In this document: positions 4,626 to 39,939 of the stretch, piece by piece
How positions within the stretch are numbered: the first letter of the stretch is position 1
How the letters are laid out: each line of letters begins with the position of its first letter
Origin: Branchipolynoe longqiensis
Lineage: Eukaryota > Annelida > Polychaeta > Phyllodocida > Polynoidae
Length of the DNA stretch: 64,000 bases
Direction: 5' to 3'
Assembly (NCBI GenBank): GCA_030323885.1
Contig: CM059194.1
Span: forward strand, 186,001 to 250,000
Made by a program: the position numbers and the translations under genes
Notes under the pieces: model-generated
Told to the model about the DNA's origin: nothing
Databases searched by the model: none
The model's input: the letters and a program-made list of their open reading frames with translations, nothing else

Positions 4626-5200
4626 GAAAGTACAGATAGAGACTATTTTCAGTGTTGTACGACATTTGAAAGGCATTTTACTAAGCCATTCAAGTCTTCA
4701 AATGCAGAAATCAGAGGTAAAATTGACAGGAATGTCCATGTTAACTATTAGAATGTGAAAATTTAGTATTTTTTCTTCCTAAAAATGGTCATACAATGAC
4801 TACAACTGGAATCGCAAGTCTAGAATCTGGCAGCCAAAAGTTGGTGTCAGGCAGTTATGACTGGATTCTCTAGGTCAGAATGTTATGTTTGGGGTGAGTG
4901 AGTCATCACACAGCCTATTATGCACCATCACACAGCCTATTATGCACTATCACAGCTCACGGTGCCCATGATGCGCGAGTAAACACATGCGCTCTCAGCT
5001 AGAGTAAACAAACGGCAACATAAATGTCTCAGACTTTAAAAAACGGATAAACACTGCTCAGGGAGGAACATTGGAAGTAAGAGAAGATAAGGATATCAGT
5101 TTCAGGACTAATCTGGGATGAAAAGCATTGGATATCACTTAATGAGCTGGTGTTGTTGTTGGGTGAGTGAGTGATAATACCAGTAGATTGTGAGAGTGAC
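4626..5200. other. AT-rich spacer without recognisable gene
   Basis: No coding signal was seen. It contains short direct repeats (CACAGCCTATTATGCAC twice near 4913-4950) and, at 4968-5020, a block (GCGAGTAAACACATGCG and flanks) that recurs on the far side of the following satellite at about 5825-5870. The satellite is therefore bracketed by copies of one sequence. Confidence 0.5.
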
Positions 5201-5214
5201 TATAGGCTACAGCC

Positions 5215-5815
5215 AAACATCTGAATGTTACATACTGAGTGTTACATACCGAATGTCACACACCGAGTGTCACATATTGAGTGCCACATACCGATTGTCG
5301 GATACTGAGTGTCACATACTGAGTGTCACATAACTGGTGTCACATACTGGGTGGCACATACCGAGTGTCAAATACTGAGTGTCACGTACCGATTGTCGGA
5401 TACTGAGTGTCAAATCCGAGTGTCACATGGTGGGTGTCAGATACTGAGTGATACTTACTGAGTGTCAGATGCCGATTGTCAGATACTGAGTGTCACATTA
5501 CCAGGTCCAGTTACTGAGTGTCACATTACCAATGGCAAACATCTGAGTGTTACATACTGGGTATAACATACCGAGTGTCACATACCGAGTGTCATATATT
5601 GAGTGCAACATACCGATTGTCGGATACTGAGTGTCACATACTGAGTGTCACATAACAGGTGTCACATACTGAATGCCACATACCGAGTGCCACATAATGA
5701 TTGTCAGATACTGAGTGTCACATCCGACTGTCACATAATGGGTGTCGGATACTGAGTGATACACACTGACTGTCAGTGCCGATTGTCAGATACTGAGTGT
5801 CACATTACCAATGGC
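5215..5815 (+). repeat. 14-16 bp minisatellite with ~320-bp higher-order duplication
   Basis: A degenerate unit close to ACTGAGTGTCACAT is repeated about 40 times with alternating ACCGATTGTCGGAT variants. The block starting at 5218 (AACATCTGAATGTTACATAC) recurs in the same variant order from about 5538, giving a higher-order repeat near 320 bp. It lies about 200 bp upstream of the NADAR-containing ORF. Confidence 0.85.
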
Positions 5816-6021
5816 ATCGGGAATGACGCACGAGTAAACACGTGCGTTATCAGCTGGAGTAAAGAAATGGTTGATGTTGTGTCTGTGACTGTGTGTGGCC
5901 AACGGCAAGGAAATTGAACTTTGAACCAACAGCAGCAAATCTGAGTTGGGACTGACTCAAGTGAAGGTATTGGGCACCCAATATCATTGTCATTCACTCA
6001 TAGATCACGATCCATCTCAGC

Positions 6022-7401
6022 ATGTCGCAGAGGCAGCAGATTGACACGGCCAGGACGCGTGAGAAGGCAGGATCACTGTCACAGTCGGAGGTGGCACAAC
6101 CCTGCACAACTTCGCCAGCCCGGATTAATACTGCCAAAAATGTGGACTACTCAAGTACCAATGATGCCAATGATTCTATGCTGGCCCAAATGTTGGCCAG
6201 GATGGATCAACTTGATGCCAGTATGGAAGTCAAACTATTGAATGTAGTGCATGTGGTTGATGATATACGTGACAGGGCCGCTGCTGACATGAGCAGATTG
6301 ACGGCCCTCCCAGAAACTAGCCATCAGGAACAGCAGGCTGACAGACGATCCCTGTTGTTTGCTAGGCAGAGCCTGATGGTTGCTCGAGAATCAAACAAGC
6401 GGTTGGAGCACCAGATCAATGAGCTGGAGAACCAATCTAAGTTGGGTAATATCAAGATAGATGGTAAGCCGGAACAGGGTGCAGAAAATCTACACCAATA
6501 TGTATATGATCTGGCTGCACATCTCGTTCCTGCAATGGCCCTTGAACGTCCGGCAATATTGTCAGTGTATAGGATCGGGAAACTGAGGTTGGGGGCCCCT
6601 GGGGTGCACCGACTGCGGATTCCCGGCCGTCCTTGCCCAATTGTGATTGCTTTCAAAAATGCAAATGAAAGAAATGCCTTTTATTTTGCACGTTCTAAGC
6701 TTAAAAATAGTGAGCTGTATAAAGGTATCTACCTGAGTGACGATGTCACCCAACTGACCTGGAGAATGAGAGATGAATGTAGGTCGGTTGCGGCACTCGC
6801 CAGGTCAGCTGGTGCAGAGGTGCGGGTGCATGGAGATGGTGTCATCATTGATGGGCATAAATATAAGCATATTGAGCTCAACTCCCTTCCACCCCACTTC
6901 TCACTGGCTAAGGCAAAAACAATTAATCGGGATGGAGAGATTTATTTCCATTCAGAACACTCCTACCTATCCAATTTTGCCCAGTCTCCTATTTTACATG
7001 AAGGGGTTGCATACCCAACAGCAGAACATATGTTTCAGGCAATCAAGTGCAAAATGGCTGATGACAGAGACCGGGTTGAACAGATTGCCCTGGTGTCAAC
7101 AGCTTTGGAGGCCAAGCGCATAGCAGACCAGCTCACGGAGTCACCGGAGTGGCGTGCTAAACGTGATGAAATGCTTGCATTGGTTGTAAACAAGAAATTT
7201 GATCAGAATCCACACATGGCAGGGTATTTGATTGAGACGGGAGACATGCCATTAAATGAGGCCACTTCCAATTCATACTACGGGATCGGAGCTACGCTAC
7301 ATAGTCGTGAGGTACGGGATAAATCATACAAGGGACTTAACAAGCTGGGTATGGCATTGGCTGTTGAGCGCAAAAGTCTTAAGAGTCTCCTGTCAGTCTG
7401 A
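6022..7401 (+). CDS. LINE ORF1-like protein fused to a C-terminal NADAR (YbiA-like) domain
   Basis: This is an intact 459-residue ORF. Residues about 50-142 are polar with a probable coiled coil (ESNKRLEHQINELENQ). Residues 143-300 (starting NIKIDGKPEQ; with VYRIGK and RPCPIVIAFKN) resemble the RRM plus C-terminal domain layout of L1-type ORF1 proteins, which bind nucleic acid. Residues 305-457 match the NADAR/YbiA family: YLSNFAQSPI, YPTAEHMFQAIK (Glu335), WRAKRDEM, KKFDQNP, LIETGD and NSYYGIG (417-423, where the family usually has D-x-x-W-G-x-G). Known NADAR proteins bind or hydrolyse ADP-ribose adducts, including ADP-ribosylated guanine. The ATG at 6022 is the first in this frame; the ORF starting at 5987 is a different frame. 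A decayed LINE EN-RT ORF lies 2.3 kb downstream on the same strand and may be its ORF2. A domesticated single-exon host gene is the alternative. Confidence 0.85.
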   Translation: MSQRQQIDTARTREKAGSLSQSEVAQPCTTSPARINTAKNVDYSSTNDANDSMLAQMLARMDQLDASMEVKLLNVVHVVDDIRDRAAADMSRLTALPETSHQEQQADRRSLLFARQSLMVARESNKRLEHQINELENQSKLGNIKIDGKPEQGAENLHQYVYDLAAHLVPAMALERPAILSVYRIGKLRLGAPGVHRLRIPGRPCPIVIAFKNANERNAFYFARSKLKNSELYKGIYLSDDVTQLTWRMRDECRSVAALARSAGAEVRVHGDGVIIDGHKYKHIELNSLPPHFSLAKAKTINRDGEIYFHSEHSYLSNFAQSPILHEGVAYPTAEHMFQAIKCKMADDRDRVEQIALVSTALEAKRIADQLTESPEWRAKRDEMLALVVNKKFDQNPHMAGYLIETGDMPLNEATSNSYYGIGATLHSREVRDKSYKGLNKLGMALAVERKSLKSLLSV

Positions 7402-7639
7402 AAACTGATCCAATATATGCTGACTTACTCTGGAACTACACCCCAATCTGACTCCTAGATTGACTGTTTTGGCAGAACATGTTCTCCCATATCCTCTTGT
7501 GTTTTCAAGATGATACTAGTAAAGTTCAGAGGCACTAAGCAAAGCTGAGACACCATGTTGGGCTATGACAGTACAGCAGCATGAGTATGTGATGCCAGTA
7601 TCATGTGTGCTTTTTGTGCTTCAGACAGCGAAGGAAGAC
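7402..7639 (+). other. Spacer between the NADAR ORF and the 140-bp array
   Basis: No gene or clear repeat was seen. No canonical AATAAA is obvious directly after the stop codon, so the 3' end of the transcript is not defined by sequence. Confidence 0.4.
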
Positions 7640-9115
7640 AATGGTGTTCATGACTATGAGCATAGATTTACCTACTCTTGCCTTAGACACATACTGCCTA
7701 GGCCGTCCTGATCTTTCGCTGTGTTCTGGCTTCCTTGTTGACTGTTCCTTGTATGACTGTGAGTGTGGGTGTATTTCTTTGAGCTTAGGTGTTCAAGATT
7801 ATACGACTAGAACCCACCTAGGCCTTAGGCACATATTACTTGTGCCATCCTGACCTTCTTGATGGTTCCTTGTGTAACTATGGATATATGTGTATCCCAT
7901 TAAGTGTTCATGGTTATGAATATGAGCATAGGCTTGCCTGGTCAGGCGTTGGAAGTTCACTGCATTCAGCATCCTGAACGTAGACTGTATTGGCTTCCTT
8001 GTCAACTATGAGTGTAGGTGTACCCCTTTGGGTTTAGCTCTTCATCCTAATATTGGACTACATACTAGCTTCATTATCAACTGTTCATATCAAATTGTTC
8101 ATGATTACGTATATGGGCTTATCTAGTCCTGCCTTAGACACATACTGTCTATGCCACCCTGATCTTGCACTGTGTTTTGACTTCCTTGTCAACTGTTCTT
8201 TGTGTAATTGAATGTGGGTATATTCCTTGAGCTTGGGTGTTCATGATTATAAGAATAGGCCTACCTAGTCCTGCCTTAGGCACATATTGCTTATGCTGTC
8301 CTGACCTTAGACTGGGTTCTTGCTTGCTTCCCAATGGTTCCTTGTATAACCATGAATGTATATGTATCACATTATATGTTCATGGCTGTGAGCATTGGCT
8401 TACGGAGTCCTACCTTAGAAACACTGCATATACCATACTAATCTTAGACTATGTGTTAGCTTCCTTGTCAACTGTTCCTCGTATAACTATGAATGTAGGT
8501 GTATCACTTTAAGTTTAAGTATTCATTATTATTGGTATGGGCTTAGCTATTCCTGCCTTAGAAACACACTGCATATACCATCCTGGTCTTGGATTATATG
8601 TTAGCTCGCTGGAATACTGTTCCTTGTATAACTATGAATATAGGTCCATCCCTTTGAGCTTAGGTGCTCATGATGATAAGAATAGGCCTACCTAGTCCTG
8701 CCTTAGGCACATATTACTTATGCCGTCCCGACCTTAGACTACATTCTCATGATTGTTGCCAATGGTCCCTTGTAAAACTCTGGGTATCCCATTAAATGTC
8801 CAGTGTTCATGGTTATGAGCATAGGTCTACCTAGTCCTGCATTGGAGATTCACTGCATACTCTGCCCTGAACTTAGACTGTATTGGTTTCCTTATCAACT
8901 GTTCCTCGTATAACTATGAGAGTAGGTGTACCCCTTTAAGTTGAAGTATTCATGATTTTGTAGACTACCTAGTCCTGCCTCAGAAACACTCCATATACTA
9001 TCCCGATATTGGACTACATACTAGCTTCCTTATCAACTGTGTTCATATCAAAGTGTTCATGATTATGTGTATGGGCTTACCTAGTCCTGCCTTAGACAGA
9101 TACTGCCTGTGTCAT
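7640..9115 (+). repeat. Degenerate satellite array, ~140-bp period, about 11 units
   Basis: Each unit contains a recognisable core such as TACCTAGTCCTGCCTTAG followed by ACACATACTGC and then a segment with CTTCCTTGTCAACTGTTCCT. Cores occur at about 7660, 7810, 7930, 8115, 8265, 8395, 8545, 8685, 8825, 8965 and 9075, with spacings of about 110-190 bp. Units are strongly diverged. The array separates the NADAR ORF from the LINE EN-RT sequence and has no coding capacity. Confidence 0.85.
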
Positions 9116-9686
9116 ATTTTTGATAGTTGTTTTGTGTGTGATGTGGTTGGGGTTTATGTGTATGTGTATAGATGCCCAGTTAGTCCATCACTAAACTTGT
9201 TATAGCTCCATATTGTTTCCCTTCCATCTCTCCTCTAGCACCTCATAAAAGTTAGGGCATTGAAATCAACTAATCCATGGATTTATAACCCAGGCAGTAC
9301 CTTACACTAAATTGCATGACATATAGTTGACACCCTGCTACCCATTGCAATCTTCTTGCTAACCAATACCCAGAACCTACAGAGACACGTGATAATATCC
9401 AAACTGAATACTCTAGCTAACCCCTCTAAAATCATAAGAGGGCAAATACTGGTGCCAAAGTCATCTAGGCATATATCAGCTTAAATAAGCTATTTATCTT
9501 CACAGAAACATTTTTGAAGATTTTATTTGTGTTCTTTTTTGTGTGTTAAAATTTTATCTTTTTAAATAGATATATATATAGATTGTTTTATTATTTTGTT
9601 CTTATAACTTTTAAAGGTTAATAGAATGACTGGGACAATGCGGGGGGGGGACCTGGGTACCGGGGGACAGTGTGCAGAGGATATGA
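9116..9686 (+). other. AT-rich spacer upstream of LINE ORF2
   Basis: This stretch has no gene. It ends in poly-T/AT runs (9500-9600) followed by an abrupt change to GC-rich sequence with a G8 run at about 9641, which may be the left edge of the LINE copy or the ORF1-ORF2 linker. Confidence 0.4.
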
Positions 9687-12596
9687 GCATGGGACAAGTG
9701 GCTGGGCAGGCTTCCTCTGAACGAACTGAAGGGTCTGCCAGGTTTCAAAATAGCACACCTGAATATACGTAGTCTCACACATAAAATAGAGCAATTAAGA
9801 ATTGATCTGCCAGGATCGGGACTTGATATTTTCACAGTATCAGAAACATGGCTCAATAGCCTCATAGAAAAAAAAACTAACTTCAATAACAAGCTACACC
9901 TTCCTTAGGTATGATCAAAAAGCAAAACATCTAAATGGGCAAGCCAAAGCTGGAGGTGGACTAGGAATCTACTGCCGAAATTCTCTACAAGTAGATTCTA
10001 ATAGATATGCAGATAACAATATTTCAAATGCTGTGCTGGAACTACAATGGGTGGTTCTAACAAGGCCTTATTCAAAGAAGATCCTAATTGGAAATGTGTA
10101 CAGACCACCAGATGGAAGTGTTAAACAGGCCTTCGAGGAATTGAGCAATGTGATGAGTGAAATAGATGACATAGACAAGTATGAGACCCTACTGATAGGC
10201 GACTTCAATGCAGACTGTAGTGCTAAGAGAAAGCTACCAGCCATAATCATAAATCAATTTGCTTCAGAACATGAGCTCCAACAGCTGATAGATAAACCGA
10301 CTAGGTCAACTAGAACTACTGCAACCACAATCGATTTAGCCTTTACTAACATCAAGTATTGCACTCAAGCAGGAGTCCTTAGCTACAATGTCAGTGACCA
10401 TAAGCCAGTCTATATTATCAAAAAGAAACCCAGAAACAACCTAAAAACCACCGCATACTGCGGAAGGACATATAGAAACTTTTCAACTGATGCACTTAGG
10501 ACAATCTTGCAGAGTTATAACCCCACTACAATATTTGAAGAACAGGATCCCAACAAATGTTGGGATATTTTAGAAGATATGATCAACCATGCAGCAGATA
10601 AACTTTGTCCGATGACTGAACTAAAAATAAGAGAGAACACGGCTGATTACATCACCAGTGAACTGATAGAACTACAAAAGGACAGAGATTATTTTAAGCA
10701 AAAGGCTGACCTGACCAAAGACCCAGGAGACCAGTTTATAGCAAAATGCTTAACAAGCAAAGCCAGAACAGAGGTGAGGAAAGCGAAATCTATGTACTAC
10801 ATTGAGCAAGCCATAAAGCACAACCAGAATCCTAAGAAATTCTGGTATGAACTAAGTCAAATTCAACCAGAAGCCAAACCACAGATAAACAGCATAGTAG
10901 ATGACAGCACAGGTGAGCGAGTACCTGATGGTCAGTTAGCTGAAGTAATAAACAACTATTTTGTAGACATTGGGGCAAACCTTGACAAGAAATTCAAACA
11001 AAAAACCGAGTATCCACAAAATTATCACCCAGTCGCAAATCAACATGAATACAATCTTGAGAAAACAACAAGAAAAGAAGTACTCACCAAGATTGAGGAA
11101 CTTTCGTCATATAAATCATCGGGTATGATGAATATAAATTCAGCCTTCATTAAGACTGCCATTAGCATCCTAATAAATGAATTTACACATCTCTACTACC
11201 TTGTCATTGAAACAGGTGTATTCCCAGATAAATGGAAAATAGCTACTGTCACACCAATACCAAAGATAAGTAATCCTAAATCATGCAATGAACTACGACC
11301 AATATCAATACTGCCCCTCCCTGGCAAAGTTATCGAACAAATAATCCATGATCAAATAAAAACCTTCCTGGAAGACACCAACTACCTTGCCAAACAGCAA
11401 AATGGCTTCAGAAAATATAAATCAACCACAATAGCCCTAGCCACTCTATTAGATGAACTGCTGACTAACATGGATAGAGGAGATCTGACAATAACTGTTT
11501 TTCTTGATTTCAAGAAAGCTTTTGACACAATAGACCATGACATTTTACTGTGGAAAATTGAAAGGGCAGGACTTGGTCCTAAATCTTGTACATTTATAGC
11601 CGACTATCTATCAAATAGACAACAAGTTACAAAAATAAATGGCACTAAGTCAATGGAGAGATCAATTACAACTGGAGTACCCCAGGGTTCCACGCTTGGG
11701 CCACTACTCTTCCTCATATTCATTAATGACTTGCCCTTGGTAACAAATGAGGCCATGTCCACACTGTTTGCTGATGATGCGGCCCTGACAGTCCATAGCC
11801 CAAACATTGCATCTGCAGCAGAGGTAGTTGAAGATGTACATCACACATCACACTAGCTAAGGTTAACATCTGGTGTAAGGAAAATAAACTGACAATTAAT
11901 GCGAAGAAATCTGAATACATAATTTTTGCAACCAAAGTAAAAAAATCCAGAGCACAACCTATCAATTTACATTTGGGTGATGCAGTATTGAATGAGGTAG
12001 AATCATACAAATATTTAGGGACCACACTCGATTCTACACTAAATGGTAATCGACAACTCTCAAGACTTAATCAAATGATAGCCATAAAAATGACAACTTT
12101 CAGAAAAATTAGGTACTACATGAGCGAGAATACAGCCCTGTTACTATATTAAGCCACTATTCTTCCAATAATTGACTACAATGATTTAATATATGGACTG
12201 CTGACAAAACAACAAGAAAACAAATTACAGAGGATTCAAAACAGGGCACTTAGAACTGTCTACAGAGGGAAAAACCTGTCTGTAAAGGAAATGCATGCTA
12301 AATCACAAGTCAGCTACCTTAGCCAAAGGAGGGACACACATCTCCTCAGTCTCATGTATAAAAGATCCAATGATGAACAATATGTTGACCATACAAACAG
12401 AGTAACCAGACAGAGCGATGCTACACTTCTAAAAACACCCAAGCCATTAACAAACAAACTGACTAAAGCACCGATTTACAGAGGTGGCACATTGTGGAAT
12501 AAACTTCCAGTGAGGACAAGACGGTCCACAAGTCTCCTTGAATTTAAAAACTTAATGAAAATACAACAGGCCTGTCAGACCCCGACACAGTTATAG
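9687..12596 (+). pseudogene. CR1/Jockey-type LINE ORF2: endonuclease and reverse transcriptase (decayed)
   Basis: An apurinic-type endonuclease begins with KIAHLNIRSLTHKIEQL and SETWLN, then shifts frame near 9868-9905 at an A-run. It continues with GGGLGIYCRNS, GNVYRPPDG, GDFNAD and SDHKPVY. The RT follows in the 607-codon frame from 10033: TPIPK, LRPISILP, QNGFRKYKST, FLDFKKAFDTIDH, GVPQGSTLGPLLFLIF and catalytic FADDA (about 11767). After about 11840 the frame shifts again; the thumb and C-terminal region continue to 12596 with one more stop at about 12151 and end LWNKLPV. The element family is by RT motifs only. This copy cannot encode a functional ORF2. It may or may not belong to the same element as the upstream NADAR ORF. 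Confidence 0.85.
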
Positions 12597-13895: not shown

Positions 13896-16800
13896 TCACG
13901 TTACTTCGTAACGCCTCACAGGTTTTACCTCCCTACCTGTCTTAGTTATATAATTTGCTGTCGTTTCCTTCACCTCACTCCGGCTGTTTAGCCCCCTGCA
14001 CGCTGTCCCTGTCTGTCTCCCTTCCTTCGGTGCCGGAATCACCATCGATCTGTTTCTCGTTACTATTTTGCTTTCGTCATTCTCTATCCTGTATGACCGG
14101 TTGTGTTCTGCGTCCCTGCCTACTACACACCCTGTCACCCACTCTCCTTTATGACTTACATATCTGACTCGTTCACCTGTCTTGAGTGTTCGATGCTGAC
14201 TCCCTGCATGCTTGTCATGATACGTTTTCTGGGCTAACTGATGCTTCTCTATGTGTTTCTTACGTGATTGCACTGCTTTGGCTTTCAGCAATTTCGGTAT
14301 TGTTGGGATGCAACACCGCAACCGCCTACTCATTAACAACTGGGCCGGAGACGCCCCTAGGTCATGCATGACTGTATTTCTGTATGTCAATAAAGCTAAA
14401 TAAACATCCAAACTATCTGCCTTGGACTTTTTTATCATTGACTTGACTGTTTTTACGCATCTCTCTGCTTGACCGTTACTCCTGGGATACAACGGGCTAG
14501 AATGTACTGGCTTGAATCCATATTCCTTTGCGAATAACTTGTAATCATCACTCACAAACTGAGGACCATTATCCGATACCACCATACTCGGTATCCCCTG
14601 ACGAGCAAAAACCTCCTTCATACTCTTTATTACCGCTCTACTGGTCGTGCTTTGTAACTGCACTACCTTGGGGTACTTGGAGTAATAATCTACAATTAAT
14701 AGATAATTATCATGTCCCTCATGAAACAAATCTATTCCTACCTTGTAGAATGGAATATCAGGTATGTCATGAGATATTAATGGTTCCTTCCCAGGACGGT
14801 CACGTGTCATCTGACACGCCTGACATCGAGACACTTTATCTTGTACTTGACTGTCTATACCCGGCCAGAATACATAGTCACGAGCTATCTGCTTAGATTT
14901 CACAATGCCTAAGTGCGATGCATGAATTTTGTTTAGCATTTGATGTTGCAACAATTTAGGAATTACAATCCTGGTACCCTTCATTATAATACCATTTTGC
15001 ACAGTTAACTCATCCCTGAACGTTTGGTATGGTTTCAACGAATGTTCAATGTTACTTTGATCAGCCGGCCATCCGTGTCGTATATAACCAACTAACTTCA
15101 CAAGGGTGCTGTCTGCTCGCGTCTCGAGTGCTATGGCCGCCAACTCGTCCTCCACGTAGTTTAGCGCTGCAATGGACATTACATTATCATATAAATCTAA
15201 CGGTCTGCTTTTGGTTGTATGTGCCCGTGACAACGTATCCGCAAAGAACATATCCGCACCCTTTACATATACCAGCTTTAGATCATAATTTTGCAATCTT
15301 AGTCTCATTCGCTGCAAGCGCGCGGTCATCATATGTATAGGTTTTTCCATGATATTTACTAATGGCTTGTGATCTGTCTCAACTGTTACTTGCTTGCCGA
15401 AAATGTATTCATGAAACTTGGCACATCCAAAACATATGGTTAACATTTCCCGCTCAATCACAGCATAATTACCCTGGCATTTATTTAAGGCTTTCGATGC
15501 CATGCTCACTGGCAACCCACTTTGCAACAACGCTGCCCCAAGTCCGCTCTGCGACGCATCCACTTGCATCGTTATTGGTTTGTCTACTTCATAATACTTT
15601 AACACTGGGGCCGTGACCAACAACTGTTTCAATTTTACAAATGCACTTTCTTGTTCATGGTCCCAGTGCCAAGCCACATCCTTTGCTAAGAGTACTCTGA
15701 GAGGCTTTGCAATATCTGACATATTCGGGATAAATTTATGCACATATCCCACCATTCCCAAAAATCTTTGGACACTGGCTTTATCCGTCGGGGTGGTTAA
15801 CTCAGTGATAGCTTGCACCCGTTCTGGGTTTGGCATTAACCCCTCTCCTGTCAGTAAATGCCCCACATAATTTACTTGCGACTTACACAGTATCATTTTG
15901 TTCGGGTTCAATTTCAACCCAGCTTGCTGTACCCTCTTCAGAACTGCCTCCAGCCTCTCATTATGCTCGGTTAATGTTGCAGCATATATCAAAACATCAT
16001 CAGTTACAACATCTACCCCAGGGAGGCCTGTCAATATTTTTTCCATTTCTTGAATGAAAATATCCCTGGCTGTTTTAATGCCGAAAGGCAGCCGGGTAAA
16101 TCTGTACCTCCCCCAGGGCGTGTTAAATGTACACAACAATGAGCTCTGTTCGTCTAATAATATTTGCCAGTACCCGCTTTGCGCGTCTAGCACTGAAAAG
16201 AATTTGGCACCCGAGGTGTTAGCCACCACTTGCTCTACCGTTTTAATTGGATACAGCCCACGTAGAATAGCCTTATTCAACTTGGTAGGGTCAAGGCAAA
16301 TTCGTAACTTATTTGGCTTTCGCACTATAGTAACCGAATTAACCCATGGTGTAGGCTCATTTTGTTCGACTATCACCCCCATATCCAACATTCTATCTAA
16401 TTCAGTCTGTACTGCATTATTAATGGCGTCTGGAATGCGCCTCGGTGGGTCAATGACTGCCGGCACACTCTCATCTATATGTATAGTCGCATTCACTTTA
16501 ATACACCCAAGTCCATTAAATACAGATTTATATTTATTTACCATTTCTTTTGCTTGCTTGCTGTCTGTTTCTGCCGGCCTCTCCTGAATGTTCACCGCCT
16601 GCACACGGCTGACGAGGTTCAGGCTAACGCATGCGTCCTTTCCCAAGATAGCACATCCGTTGTCTATTATTTGGAAACGCACCGGCTGTCCTTGGACGTC
16701 CATGATGACCTCGCCCCGTGGCCGAATTCGCTCCCCCGAATACGTTATGAGCCGACACGTTGGTTTTTCCAGTCGGGTGTTGGGCATCCTCATGAATTCT

Positions 16801-16922
16801 GCCTCCGGTATGATGTTGGCTTCTGAACCGGTGTCCAACTTGAAACGTACTTGTTCGTCGCCCACCGTCAAAGTCTCGAACCACAGACCCGACTCTTCGT
16901 CCACTTCTGTAATGGCGCCCAC
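13896..16922 (-). CDS. Gypsy pol polyprotein, intact 1008 aa
   Basis: The polyprotein of a Ty3/gypsy element makes cDNA from the element RNA and inserts it into chromosomes. Domains in order: aspartic protease with D30-T31-G32; reverse transcriptase about 150-370 with FSVLDAQSGYW and catalytic V-T-D-D at 306-309; RNase H starting about 449 (QVDASQSG, D455; TDHKPLV); integrase with an HHCC zinc region (H667/H670, C700/C703), the D731, D784, E820 triad (VGIDLF, SDNGPQF, SNGQAE) and a basic C-terminal domain. No internal stop or shift is seen, unlike the paralogous pol at 1-3036. The start is arbitrary, since pol is normally made by frameshift or overlap with gag, whose zinc-knuckle frame overlaps its first codons. 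Confidence 0.92.
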   Translation of the reverse strand: MGAITEVDEESGLWFETLTVGDEQVRFKLDTGSEANIIPEAEFMRMPNTRLEKPTCRLITYSGERIRPRGEVIMDVQGQPVRFQIIDNGCAILGKDACVSLNLVSRVQAVNIQERPAETDSKQAKEMVNKYKSVFNGLGCIKVNATIHIDESVPAVIDPPRRIPDAINNAVQTELDRMLDMGVIVEQNEPTPWVNSVTIVRKPNKLRICLDPTKLNKAILRGLYPIKTVEQVVANTSGAKFFSVLDAQSGYWQILLDEQSSLLCTFNTPWGRYRFTRLPFGIKTARDIFIQEMEKILTGLPGVDVVTDDVLIYAATLTEHNERLEAVLKRVQQAGLKLNPNKMILCKSQVNYVGHLLTGEGLMPNPERVQAITELTTPTDKASVQRFLGMVGYVHKFIPNMSDIAKPLRVLLAKDVAWHWDHEQESAFVKLKQLLVTAPVLKYYEVDKPITMQVDASQSGLGAALLQSGLPVSMASKALNKCQGNYAVIEREMLTICFGCAKFHEYIFGKQVTVETDHKPLVNIMEKPIHMMTARLQRMRLRLQNYDLKLVYVKGADMFFADTLSRAHTTKSRPLDLYDNVMSIAALNYVEDELAAIALETRADSTLVKLVGYIRHGWPADQSNIEHSLKPYQTFRDELTVQNGIIMKGTRIVIPKLLQHQMLNKIHASHLGIVKSKQIARDYVFWPGIDSQVQDKVSRCQACQMTRDRPGKEPLISHDIPDIPFYKVGIDLFHEGHDNYLLIVDYYSKYPKVVQLQSTTSRAVIKSMKEVFARQGIPSMVVSDNGPQFVSDDYKLFAKEYGFKPVHSSPLYPRSNGQAERCVKTVKSMIKKSKADSLDVYLALLTYRNTVMHDLGASPAQLLMSRRLRCCIPTIPKLLKAKAVQSRKKHIEKHQLAQKTYHDKHAGSQHRTLKTGERVRYVSHKGEWVTGCVVGRDAEHNRSYRIENDESKIVTRNRSMVIPAPKEGRQTGTACRGLNSRSEVKETTANYITKTGREVKPVRRYEVT

Positions 16923-34599: not shown

Positions 34600-34821
34600 C
34601 AACCATCAGTCGAACCGAGCCCTATTAAAAAGGCTACGGCTATAAAACGAAAACCTAAAGTTGTTTCGGACAGAGTCCCGAAAGGGTCTCTGTCCCTAAC
34701 TAAAAACAGATTCGAGGCGCTGGAAGAAGTAGAGATGGCTGAGGCCTCGACTAGTCGAGACCGCAGTCTCTCCCCCAAACCTAAGGGGAGGGGGAGAACA
34801 CCTGTCACTGCCCCAAAATGA
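34600..34821 (+). pseudogene. LINE ORF1, C-terminal remnant
   Basis: The frame encodes a lysine/serine-rich tail (PSPIKKATAIKRKPK, SLTKNRFEALEEVE, SLSPKPKGRGRTP) and stops at 34819-34821, overlapping the ORF2 ATG (ATGA overlap at 34818). The nucleic-acid-binding and zinc-knuckle portions of ORF1 are missing because the copy is 5'-truncated by target-primed integration. Confidence 0.7.
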
Positions 34822-37800
34822 CAGTGAGAGGTGGTTCTCTGCTTCAGTGGAATTGTAGAGGTTTCAAGGGCAGCATTGAAGAGTTATCTCTTCTGTGCTG
34901 CAACCTCAACCCTCTTGCCATTTGCTTACAAGAAACTCACGTGAGAGCTTCTGAGAGTTGTAGTCTTAAAGGCTACATCAATTTTGACAAATCCGCACCG
35001 GATGGAGACCGGGCCGCTGGCGGCTCCTCCATCCTGGTTAGACGTGATATTGTATGTACGCCAGTGGCGTTAGACACAACACTACAGGCTGTAGCTGTTC
35101 GTCTGACGCTACATAAGACTATAACTCTCTGTTCCATCTATGTTCCTCCGAGCTCCATTCTCACCTTACAAGAATTGGATGCTCTTGTGAGCCAATTACC
35201 GTCCCCATATTTACTTATGGGTGACTTTAACGGCCACAACCCACTGTGGGGAGGGACCACTAGGAACCCAAAGGGCAAGAGGATTGAGGACCTTGTGGAC
35301 GGTTGTGCACTGTGTGTATTGAACGATGGTTCATGCACATATCTGCATCCCACCTACGGAACATACTCTGCCATCGACCTTAGCATTGTTGAACCAGAGC
35401 TGGCGCTGGACTTTTCGTGGAGGGTCTGGAACGACCTCTGCGGGAGCGACCACTTCCCAATTATTCTTAATTGTGAAGGGGCATCTCCCGTAGAGCGAGA
35501 GAGGAGCTGGCGGCTGCGTCAAGCCGACTGGCCCTCCTTCCGGACCCTGTGCCGCGAGGAGTTCACTCCAGACATCAGTGACATTGATTCATTCACTGAA
35601 ATGCTGAGGTGGATTGCAGATAAAACTGTTCCGAAGACTTCTGCAATTCCCAAGCGTCTCACGCCTCCATGGTTGGATGACAGCTGTAGGGGGGCTATTA
35701 AGGAACGGAAAAAAGCTCAGCGTAGATTCCACAGGAGACCGACTGCTGAAAATCTGGCGCTCTTTAGAATTCTGCGCGCTCGCGCTCGCAGAACAATCAA
35801 AGAAGCGCGGAGGCAGTGCTGGAGATGATTCGTTTCTGGCATTAACACGGGCACGCCATTGGGCAAAGTCTGGACGATGATCAGAAGAATCAAGGGAAGG
35901 GGAGATGATTCTTCTGTAGTCCACCACTTGAAGCACAATGGCACCATTCTCACATCACTCAAGGAAATAAGCGAAGAATAGGCTCGTGACGTTGCCGGAA
36001 ATTCGTCTTTGGCAAGCTACCTCCCGGGCTTTCTGGCCGTCAAGGAATGCCAAGAGCGTAAGCTCTTGGAATTTTCCTCTGACGGCAGGGAGCACTACAA
36101 CTCCCCATTCAGTATGGGTGAGTTGAGGTGTTCTCTAGAAAGCTCGCATGATACAGCAGTTGGACCTGATGGAATCCATTATCAATTCCTTAAGCATCTC
36201 CCCAAATCTGCGCTGAGACTGCTGCTTCAACTCTTTAACAACATCTGGGAGTCGGGTGTCGTCCCCGCCTCTTGGCGGGAGGCGACAGTAATACCGATTC
36301 CCAAACCTGGTAAAGACAAGAGTGAAGCTAACAACTACCGTACTATAGCCCTCACAAGCTGCATCTGTAAAACCATGGAGCGTATGGTAAATAAACGCCT
36401 CGTCTGGCTACTGGAGTCAGGGCACCACTTGTCCGACCTCCAATGTGGCTTCAGACGAGGCCGCAGCACCCTCGACCATTTGGTTCGCATGGAGAACTTC
36501 ATAAGAGATGCCTTCCTTAAGAAGGAGCACGTTGTGGCTGTCTTTTTCGATCTCGAAAAAGCCTATGACACAACGTGGCAGCATGGCATTATGGAGGATC
36601 TCCATGCGATCGGCCTTCGTGGTCACCTGCCAAATTTTATTAAGAATTTTCTGGCGCTCAGGCATTTTCGCGTCCGCGTCAAGACTACATATTCTAGTCT
36701 GCACTCGCAGGAATTGGGAGTACCCCAAGGCAGCATACTGGCAGTGACTCTTTTTGTAGTCAAGGTCAACGCTATTGCTGCCGCTGTTAAAAGGGGGGTC
36801 TCCTGTAGTCTTTTCGTGGACGATTTTGTTTTATATTATAGAGGTACTGGTATGAATGTCATTGAGAGACAGCTTCAATTGTGTATAAATGGGATTCAGC
36901 GATGGTCAGTTCTGAATGGATTCAGATTTTCCAAGGCCAAGACAGTCTGCATGCACTTCTGCCAGTTGCGCAGAGTGCATGCAGAGCCAGAGCTGACCCT
37001 CGATGGGGATCCCATAAAAGTTGTCAAAGAAACCAAATTTTTGGGTCTCACTTTTGACACGAGGCTGTCTTTCGTGCCTCATATCAAGTACCTCAAAACG
37101 CGATGCCTGAAAGCGCTAGACGTTCTGAGGGTGTTGTCCAGTTCAGAGTGGGGAGCGGACAGAGATGTTCTGCTCGCTGTGTACCGAACCCTAGTTCGGT
37201 CACGGCTAGATTACGGCAGCATAGTATACGGCTCCGCAAGGAAGTCGTATATTGGGCTGCTGGACACGGTGCATCATCAGGGGCTGCGTCTGGCCATTGG
37301 CGCCTTTCGCACCTCTCCAGTTCAGAGCCTATACGTCGAAGCCAACGAACCATCACTTGACACTAGGAGAACCAAACTGGCCATGCAATATGTTGTCAAA
37401 TTAAAAAGAAAGCCATTAAATCCTGCGTACAGTTGTGTTTTTGAGACACACAACGACTCCAAGTATGAAGCCAAGCCAAATTTCATTCGGCCCCTGGGGC
37501 TCCGGATGAAACCTCATTTGGAGGCTTTGTACTTGGATCTGGATGTATTACAGAATACCCAGGTCCCAGAATATCCCCCATGGTCGTTGAGGAAGCCATC
37601 GGTCATCCTCCGACTCACGGAACTGAGGAAGTCTGGGACACATCCACTTGAGTATCAACGACTGTACGCAGAGATTCAAGGCCAGTTTGAAGACCACTTC
37701 TCCATGTATACCGATGGTTCCAAAGACCTAAGCCGGGCAGCTGCTGCTGGAGTTTGAAGAAATTTGGCGTTCGCATGCCTGATCAGAGCTCGAATTTTAC

Positions 37801-38488
37801 GGCGGAAGCCCGAGCACTCCTTCTCGCGTTGGAAGTCATTGAGCTGTCCAACTACACTAAATATGTAATATACAGCGATTCGTTTTCCTGCCTGCAAGCT
37901 GTTGCTGGGCTAAAAACGGACCACCCTTTCGTGGCAAAGGTCATTTACAAAATGAACCAGCTAGCAACAGATGGATATGACATCCACTTGTGTTGGGTGC
38001 CTGGCCATGCCGGCATCCAGGGAAACGAACGAGCTGATCGGGCTGCGAAGGAGGCTCTGAACTATGATGTTGAGCCATGTCTGATACCCCACTCTGATCT
38101 GAAACCACTAATAGCCACCCACATCAAATCCAAATGGCAACATGAGTGGGATGAAAACATAAATAAACTTAAAGAAATTGAACCATCTGTGGGAAAACCA
38201 CCACATTCTCATGTGGGGGGTCGGCGGAACCAAGTGGTCCTTAGCCGCTGCCGTATTGGCCACTCGTGGCTAACACATGTTTTCCTGCTCAAGGGGAACC
38301 CTCCCCCTGAATGTATTGGATGTCAGTCCCCACTGACAGTCAAGCACATTTTATTAAACTGTGTTGATTTTATGGCACTGCGCCAACAATTTTACACTGC
38401 AAACAGCATGCATGACCTTTTTACCAAAGTTAAACAAGAAGACATTTTAGCTTTTTTGAGGGCAGCTGGTCTGTACCACCTCATATAG
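34818..38488 (+). pseudogene. LINE ORF2: endonuclease, RT, RNase H (2 stops, 1 frameshift)
   Basis: The endonuclease spans 34818-35500 (LLQWNCRGFKG, LQETHV, MGDFNGHNPLWG, GSDHFPI). RT spans about 36100-37300 (VIPIPKPGKDK, NNYRTIALTS, QCGFRRGRSTLDHL, FFDLEKAYDTTW, LGVPQGSILA, catalytic LFVDDFVLYY). RNase H spans 37700-38100 (SMYTDGSK, NFTAEARALLLAL, YSDSFSCLQA, VPGHAGIQGNERAD), followed by a C-terminal cysteine/histidine stretch (ECIGCQSPLTVKHILLNC). In-frame stops are at 35826-35828 and 35979-35981, and the frame shifts at about 37755 between the first RNase H aspartate and its second motif. Otherwise the sequence is well preserved. Confidence 0.9.
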
Positions 38489-38634
38489 TTCATTAAAACA
38501 ATTTTTATTAATTACTTCTTACATCTATTTTATTTAATTATATGAATTTGGCCTTTTAAAAATTAATAAGTGTTATGCTGCCGACACGGCGTAAAGAAAC
38601 CACCAATCAATCAATCAATCAAAGCTAAGTTGTA

Positions 38635-38674
38635 TATTATTCTACTTTTCATCTTCAAGGTGGAAAGAAGCAAA
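38635..38674 (+). promoter_or_regulatory. Borealin 5' leader; possible 3' splice site of a 5' UTR intron
   Basis: The tract TTCTACTTTTCATCTTCAAG (38640-38659) looks like a polypyrimidine tract with AG, suggesting that an upstream non-coding exon may be spliced to 38660. If so, the LINE at 34584-38623 lies inside that intron, about 36 bp from the acceptor. No TATA or CpG island is visible here. Confidence 0.4.
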
Positions 38675-38810
38675 ATGCCGCGTAGAAAAACGATCCGCGC
38701 TGCAAAAAGGGCGACGCCTAGAACACACGAGGAGCAGGTGGGCGCCAACCTGACGGGCGAGAGCAAGGCGGACAAGCTGGACGTGCTGCTCAAGGACTTC
38801 GACCAGGAGG
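38675..38810 (+). CDS. CDCA8: Borealin exon 1 (codons 1-45 plus one base)
   Basis: The start ATG is followed by a basic N-terminal tail (MPRRKTIRAAKRATPRT) and the borealin signature KLDVLLKDFDQE. In borealin this region begins the helix that packs with survivin and the INCENP N-terminus to target the chromosomal passenger complex to centromeres and the midzone. The donor GAGG|GTCAGT leaves one base (phase 1), completed by TG of exon 2 to give valine. The reading frame continues by chance into the intronic 17-bp repeat, so the apparent 391-codon ORF is not the real protein. The LINE 3' end lies about 50 bp upstream. Confidence 0.82.
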
Positions 38811-38830
38811 GTCAGTACAGCGCGCAACTC

Positions 38831-39716
38831 AGTCTTACCACTTACTCGGTCTTACCACTTACTCGGTCTTACCCTTTACTCGGTCTTACCCCTTACTCGG
38901 TCTTACCCGTTACTCGGTCTTACCCCTTACTCGGTCTTACCACTTACTCGGTCTTACCACTTACTCGGTCTTACCACTTACTCGGTCTTACCCCTTACTC
39001 GGTCTTACCCCTTACTCGGTCTTACCACGTACTGGGTCTTACCACTTACTCGGTCTTACCCTTTACTCGGTCTTACCCCTTACTCGGTCTTACCCCTTAC
39101 TCGGTCTTACTCGGTCTTACCCCTTACTCGGTCTTACCCCTTACTCGGTCTTACCCCTTACTCGGTCTTACCCCTTGCTCGGTATTACCACTTGCTCGGT
39201 ATTACCCCTTGCTCGGTATTACCACTTGCTCGGTCTTACCTTTTACTCGATCTTACCCCTTACTCGGTCTTACCCCTTACTCGGTCTTACCCTTTACTCG
39301 GTCTTACCCCTTACTCGGTCTTACCCCTTACTCGGTCTTACCCCTTACTCGGTCTTACCCCTTACTCGGTCTTACCCTTTACTCGGTCTTACCCCTTACT
39401 CGGTCTTACCCCTTACTCGGTCTTACCCCTTACTCGGTCTTACCCCTTACTCGGTCTTACCCCTTACTCGGTCTTACCCCTTACTCGGTCTTACCCCTTA
39501 CTCGGTATTACCACTTACTCGGTCTTACCTTTTACTCGGTATTACCACTTACTCGGTCTTACCCCTTACTCGGTCTTACCCTTTACTCAGTCTTATCCCT
39601 TACTCGGTCTTACCCCTTACTCGGTCTTACCCTTTACTCGGTCTTACTCCTTACTCGGTCTTACCCCTTACTCGGTCTTACCCCTTACTCGGTCTTACCC
39701 TTTACTCGGTCTTACT
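38831..39716 (+). repeat. 17-bp minisatellite in borealin intron 1, about 52 copies
   Basis: The unit CGGTCTTACCCCTTACT has CCTTT, CCACT and GGTATT variants. It starts about 20 bp after the exon 1 donor site. Because 17 is not a multiple of three and the unit lacks stops in these frames, all three + frames are open and translate to the same 17-residue repeat. Confidence 0.97.
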
Positions 39717-39939
39717 GTCCTATAGAGGCCCTAATTGTACCGTAATGTTGCTTGCCAAAATTATGTATTTGCGCGGAAATTCACCGTCGGTTGCAGATAA
39801 CTTCACCATAGATTCCCGTTTTTTTTGGGCCGGAGACCACTTTCACCCCTGATATATTACTTATAAATAGAAGAGGTAAACTGAATAAATCTCAAACATA
39901 AAACCTGTATAGTCCTCACGCACGAGCAATCTGTTATGT

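Follow-up and report, generated by a model that had tools for sequence, protein, structure and literature searches.

An intact LINE-1-type ORF1 frame with a C-terminal NADAR domain in Branchipolynoe longqiensis, and the residues kept and changed in its putative ligand pocket

We identified a single open frame on the forward strand of the 64,000-nucleotide stretch of DNA analysed here (the window), running from an ATG at 6022 to a stop at 7401 with no internal stop and encoding a protein of 459 aa. By profile matches and hydrophobic periodicity, the architecture of this protein is a coiled coil, an RRM and a CTD, as in an ORF1p of the LINE-1 type, followed by a NADAR domain. Across its relatives the NADAR domain carries the catalytic residues of the YbiA type, and three residues that contact ADP-ribose are changed in most rows, so that substrate or geometry may differ in the LINE NADARs. 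The reading we tentatively prefer, with a little less than even chances, is that the protein would act as a ribonucleoprotein-bound ADP-ribosyl (guanine) hydrolase shielding the RNA or cDNA of the element.

The ORF1-NADAR frame and its relatives

The stop-free frame of the original prediction was borne out. When the first 13 kb of the window were mononucleotide-shuffled 2000 times, the longest open run was 289 codons. The frame and its parts, all on the forward strand, are as follows.

6022..7401, forward strand: ORF1-NADAR protein, intact frame of 459 aa
6163..6447, forward strand: coiled coil, residues 48–142, from heptad periodicity
6448..6687, forward strand: RRM-like region, residues 143–222 (approximate boundary), from the profile match to LINE-1 ORF1p and the core profile
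6688..6909, forward strand: CTD-like region, residues 223–296 (approximate boundary), from profile matches to LINE-1 ORF1p
6928..7380, forward strand: NADAR domain, residues 303–453 (Pfam match 311–453), from Pfam, NCBIfam and PDB matches

Single-sequence searches matched the C-terminal part to Pfam PF08719 (E 6.2e-23; 82.3 bits, cut-off 35.1), to NCBIfam TIGR02464 (E 1.2e-21, 77.6 bits against a cut-off of 73.7), and to the PDB entries 2b3w (YbiA; E 4.4e-10) and 8bau (E 2.3e-4). With a profile of 101 rows, consisting of the 6022..7401 protein and its best 100 listed relatives, the values for 2b3w and 8bau were 2.3e-21 and 6.8e-20, and PF08719 was matched by all 101 members at an E value of 0.1 or better. 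By its score, which exceeds the curated cut-off, the protein belongs to the NADAR superfamily PF08719.

The front part of the protein had no Pfam match by single sequence, LINE-1 ORF1p was also missed by the single-sequence PDB search, and no L1 ORF1 family was among the 25 listed of 107 families for the 101 members. The 101-row profile matched the LINE-1 ORF1p structures 2ykp and 2yko (1.4e-6, over residues 91–261) and 2ldy (2.1e-4), with a weak match to 2w7a (0.017), and a 10-row profile restricted to the core gave 1.2e-6, 1.2e-6, 2.5e-5 and 0.0055 for 2ykp, 2yko, 2ldy and 2w7a, respectively. In 84 of 100 rows, residues 48–142 had a 3.5-residue hydrophobic periodicity stronger than in 95% of shuffles, with z 2.92 for the 6022..7401 copy. 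As judged by these profiles and the periodicity, the front part is a homologue of L1-type ORF1p with a coiled coil ahead of the RRM, and the predicted fusion of such an ORF1 to a C-terminal NADAR held up.

The relatives were the best 100, ranked best-first, with scoring limited to the 7998 candidates that shared most words. NADAR (PF08719) was present in all 100 relatives among the matches listed, so the case in which every other copy lacks the domain did not arise; the figure overstates the universality of NADAR, since the list is best-first. Identity to the 459-aa protein was 34–95% among the matches listed and 34–94% in the alignment, mostly 39–49%, and the closest of the listed relatives (P0002) was 95% identical across 90% of the protein. 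The lengths of the 101 rows clustered near 460 aa, and every row had M at its start. Mean pairwise identity in this set was lowest in the N-terminal part (0.206), followed by the RRM (0.380), and reached 0.526 in the NADAR and 0.547 in the CTD; conservation of the NADAR is close to that of the CTD and exceeds that of the RRM. Invariant columns numbered 17 of 151 in the NADAR and 12 of 74 in the CTD region. The identities of core and NADAR were correlated (r 0.71; maximum over 2000 permutations 0.13), as expected for joint evolution as one protein.

A core-only search restricted to proteins of 110–350 aa gave seven matches. P0105 had a complete NADAR and P0103 ended 38 model positions inside one, while similarity was lost at or before the junction in P0102 and P0104, likely through a frameshift or an end. 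The remaining three (P0106, P0107 and P0108) were distant, at 25–26% identity, and lacked the domain, indicating that NADAR-less ORF1 relatives exist beyond the close family.

Catalytic residues, ligand pocket and origin of the fusion

Residues were mapped by profile alignment to 8bau and by the P. nicotianae NADAR numbering of PMC11543638. An offset of two between the two numberings gave the correct letter at 11 of 11 hand-checked contact residues, and from this agreement we infer that 8bau is the P. nicotianae NADAR. The positions concerned are listed below.

7024..7026, forward strand: E335, counterpart of the catalytic-site E43, kept in 101 of 101 rows
7045..7047, forward strand: K342, counterpart of K50, kept in 99 of 101 rows
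7126..7128, forward strand: D369 at the R79 position, D in 92 of 101 LINE rows
7150..7152, forward strand: W377, counterpart of W89, kept in 101 of 101 rows
7258..7260, forward strand: E413, counterpart of the catalytic E125 (YbiA-type glutamate), kept in 101 of 101 rows
7270..7281, forward strand: N417 and Y420 at the D130 and W133 positions, from the pocket comparison

K365, the counterpart of K75, was kept in 100 of the 101-row set. The YbiA type is defined by glutamate, not Asp or His, at the E125 position (PMC11125620, PMC11543638), and every row has that glutamate at E413. The K50 and E43 counterparts expected of a guanine-ADP-ribose hydrolase are likewise present as K342 and E335. The catalytic residues are in place and kept across the family.

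In P. nicotianae NADAR, the pyrophosphates of ADP-ribose are held by R79, D130 and W133 (PMC11543638), contacts that come from one solved complex and are not a stated family rule, and this set is changed in most LINE rows. R79 was replaced by D in 92 of the 101 LINE rows, D130 by N in 92 and W133 by F or Y in 100. Free-standing NADARs (n = 37, counted without the short P0156 and without 11 rows that were fused or fragments) had R or K at R79 in 31, D at D130 in 36 and W at W133 in all 37. The counterparts of Y84 and D86 were also not kept in the LINE rows when the alignment was read by eye. In the LINE NADARs, the catalytic function looks retained and the way the ligand is bound looks altered. 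The changes at R79, D130 and W133 are new here; they set the LINE NADARs apart from free-standing ones and predict a shift in specificity.

D and W at the D130 and W133 positions are retained in P0101, which has diverged most among the full-length rows, and, judged by its letters, also in P0113; P0101 stood opposite the main group in a midpoint-rooted core tree. These two rows are suggestive of a pocket change that postdates the fusion, with reversal possible and the trees no proof of the order.

The NADAR tree was built from 88 rows, made up of 40 LINE rows taken from the 101, 10 labelled ORF1 fragments and 38 others. One branch (99/95) consisted of the 40 LINE rows, eight fragments and P0122, the bootstrap of this tree not having settled, and the LINE label needs seven changes on it, since fragments sit among the LINE rows. 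P0133 and P0153 fell in a separate branch, with letters resembling the end of an ORF1 CTD ahead of the NADAR. They were labelled ORF1 fragments by eye, with core-profile E values of only 0.006 and 0.01, and a second, independent capture of NADAR is possible for them. The same labelling by eye was applied to P0111, P0112, P0113 and P0114, for which the core profile gave no backing: P0114 had E 0.19 and the remaining three were not listed. In the core tree of 41 rows, P0106/P0107 and P0108 lay on very long branches, and a single gain was not settled. The full profile search of viral contigs found no relative; the NADAR profile found 89 there, the best 80 of the 89 being phage-type at 25–40% identity. 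A search of prokaryote contigs with one LINE-type pattern gave zero NADAR matches, a result that says nothing on prokaryote NADARs generally.

Genomic surroundings and state of the copy

The features that bear on the state of the copy, upstream, within and downstream of the frame, are the following.

5217..5805, forward strand: array with a repeat unit of 14 bp, in 42.3 copies with 70% matches, upstream of ORF1
6634..6636, forward strand: codon 205, encoding Cys; all 100 remaining rows of the 101-row alignment, P0002 among them, have Arg at this position
7631..9130, forward strand: diverged tandem repeats spaced by approximately 140–145 bp, lying downstream of ORF1 and upstream of the EN-RT remnant
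9687..12593, forward strand: remains of a decayed LINE ORF2 with endonuclease and RT, spread over changing frames and interrupted by an in-frame stop at 12150

The 14-bp array is flanked by a 48-bp repeat (4968–5015 and 5823–5870, 83% alike) and is either a repeat-built 5' UTR or a target satellite. Array and flanking repeat together are reminiscent of monomer-built LINE promoters. Downstream, the 8406–8706 section of the diverged repeats has a period of 145, and the EN-RT remnant begins approximately 2.3 kb past the ORF1 stop, beyond the tandem repeats, with matches to RVT_1 (4.4e-26) and Exo_endo_phos_2 (9.2e-10) over 10033–11856. The motifs of this remnant resemble those of the CR1/L2 side of LINEs and not those of L1/Tx1; it is probably another LINE type. 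No L1-type ORF2 was recognised downstream of ORF1-NADAR within the window.

Cys205 is a sign of some decay of the 6022..7401 copy. The original prediction had read the open frame among broken transposon ORFs as a mark of recent activity or selection, and the case for recent activity is weakened: the intact frame and the 95% identical P0002 speak for it, whereas Cys205, the lack of a recognised L1-type ORF2 and an open neighbouring ORF speak against it. The neighbour, at 13896–16922 on the reverse strand, is an open 1008-aa ORF of an LTR-type element with RT, RNase H and integrase, and the surrounding transposon ORFs are thus not all broken as had been stated.

Elsewhere on the forward strand of the window, 34818–38488 holds another LINE, whose EN and RT ORFs (Exo_endo_phos_2, RVT_1) lie in three successive open pieces. 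It is followed at 38570–39852 by long overlapping ORFs in three frames, whose translations repeat motifs like LLGLTPYSVLPLTRSYP; this stretch is a tandem repeat and not likely to be a gene.

Proposed function and comparison with known systems

Under the hydrolase reading that we prefer, the coiled coil would multimerise the ORF1p, presumably as a trimer, and the RRM and CTD would package the RNA of the element, as in LINE-1 ORF1p. The NADAR would ride on the ORF1 particle as a working hydrolase and clear the element RNA or first-strand cDNA of ADP-ribosyl-type adducts, most likely those on guanine, leaving host ADP-ribosyltransferases unable to block reverse transcription. That relatives keep the NADAR active site suggests that the element uses the domain. 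According to PMC11543638 and PMC11125620, guanine-ADP-ribose is hydrolysed by the NADARs of several E. coli and phage proteins and by those of two cellular proteins. DNA is ADP-ribosylated at guanine-N2 in six edible clam species (PMC11209040), which places a matching host activity in the phylum of the published NADAR LINEs. The erasure of pierisin and CARP-1 marks by NADARs is an unconfirmed assumption of the authors of PMC11543638. ZAP, a PARP-family protein, restricts human L1, and its zinc-finger domain suffices for this (PMC4441479), so the example does not demonstrate an ADP-ribosyl mark. What counts against the hydrolase reading is the combined change at R79, D130, W133, Y84 and D86, since ADP-ribose may be bound otherwise or the ligand may be different.

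The altered pocket may leave room for a different substrate or for a reader role. It is possible, if somewhat unlikely, that the domain works as an N-glycosidase on something else, for example another kind of base adduct, a derivative of a free nucleotide, or a product of RNA ends or of repair, and aids RNA processing and not defence. A new substrate would explain why R79, D130 and W133 changed LINE-specifically while the catalytic glutamates stayed; moreover, the NADAR protein SNA-3 acts in RNA metabolism (PMC9303266), and processing of RNA intermediates was proposed in PMC12477816. There is, however, no known substrate for such an enzyme, and the counterparts of K50, K75 and W89, which lie at or near ADP-ribose, are kept. 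We consider it unlikely that the domain is a binding module that tethers the ORF1 particle to chromatin, RNA or protein bearing ADP-ribose, for example at damage sites, with catalysis unneeded: the altered ligand contacts would fit this, and a terminal position in a protein that packages RNA would suit targeting, but pure binding would not need the two catalytic glutamates, both of which are invariant in the 101 rows.

The two further readings concern how the frame came to be open. The 6022..7401 copy could be a stranded or host-adopted ORF1, kept open by chance or host selection, which we regard as quite improbable and which bears on this copy and not on the family. An L1-type ORF2 was not recognised after it and it has Cys in the otherwise Arg-only column 205, but at least 100 relatives of similar length and 34–95% identity are a better fit to a multicopy element than to a single host gene, and the C. 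gigas counterparts are classed as LINE ORF1 in PMC12477816. A chance read-through of ORF1 into a NADAR-like stretch, an artefact that has nothing in its favour except the missing partner ORF2, deserves almost no credence. Chance fusion was rejected because the same junction occurs in 100 listed relatives, most of them 39–49% identical, and because core and NADAR diverge together.

Going beyond the preferred hydrolase reading, LINE NADARs might be a specialised eraser subfamily whose pocket was retuned after capture for adducts within the element's own RNA or cDNA, for instance guanine ADP-ribose made by host transferases of the CARP-1/pierisin or PARP kind; we hold this to be doubtful. If true, it would mean counter-defence against nucleic-acid ADP-ribosylation inside a retrotransposon packaging protein, and would be evidence of animals using ADP-ribose marks against retroelements. 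That a NADAR active site has been maintained through such deep divergence suggests that ADP-ribosyl chemistry is under selection during retrotransposition. The role of nucleic-acid ADP-ribosylation and of NADARs in animals is described as an open question in PMC11125620, and ORF1-NADAR offers a defined protein for testing this chemistry.

Within the literature on NADAR with retroelements, only PMC12477816 (2025) proved relevant, and we found no study of the conservation, residues or function of LINE NADARs; earlier mention in older works is possible. One sentence of that paper notes that the ORF1s of several Crassostrea gigas Tx1 LINE families appear to hold YbiA-family NADAR domains, and the original view that the fusion had not been described is accordingly not supported. 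Those ORF1s (Repbase, PMC12477816), compared here by description, likewise join a LINE ORF1 to a YbiA-family NADAR. Human and mouse LINE-1 ORF1p (2yko, 2ykp, 2ldy) have the coiled coil, RRM and CTD in common with the 459-aa protein by profile (residues 91–261) and, unlike it, lack NADAR. YbiA (2b3w) and P. nicotianae NADAR (8bau) have a common fold with the LINE NADARs by profile, and the counterparts of their E43, K50, K75, W89 and E125 are kept in the LINE set; both are free-standing, whereas the LINE set mostly has D, N and F/Y for R79, D130 and W133. NADAR is also reported in the Ectocarpus Gypsy elements (PMC12477816), likewise retroelements with an acquired NADAR, which differ in being of the LTR type, in carrying the domain elsewhere, in a polyprotein, and in residing in a brown alga. 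The esterase-bearing ORF1p of ZfL2-1 (PMC3905857) is similarly a LINE ORF1 with an added hydrolase domain, but this is an SGNH esterase with a proposed lipid role, in a protein reported to have no structural RNA-binding domain.
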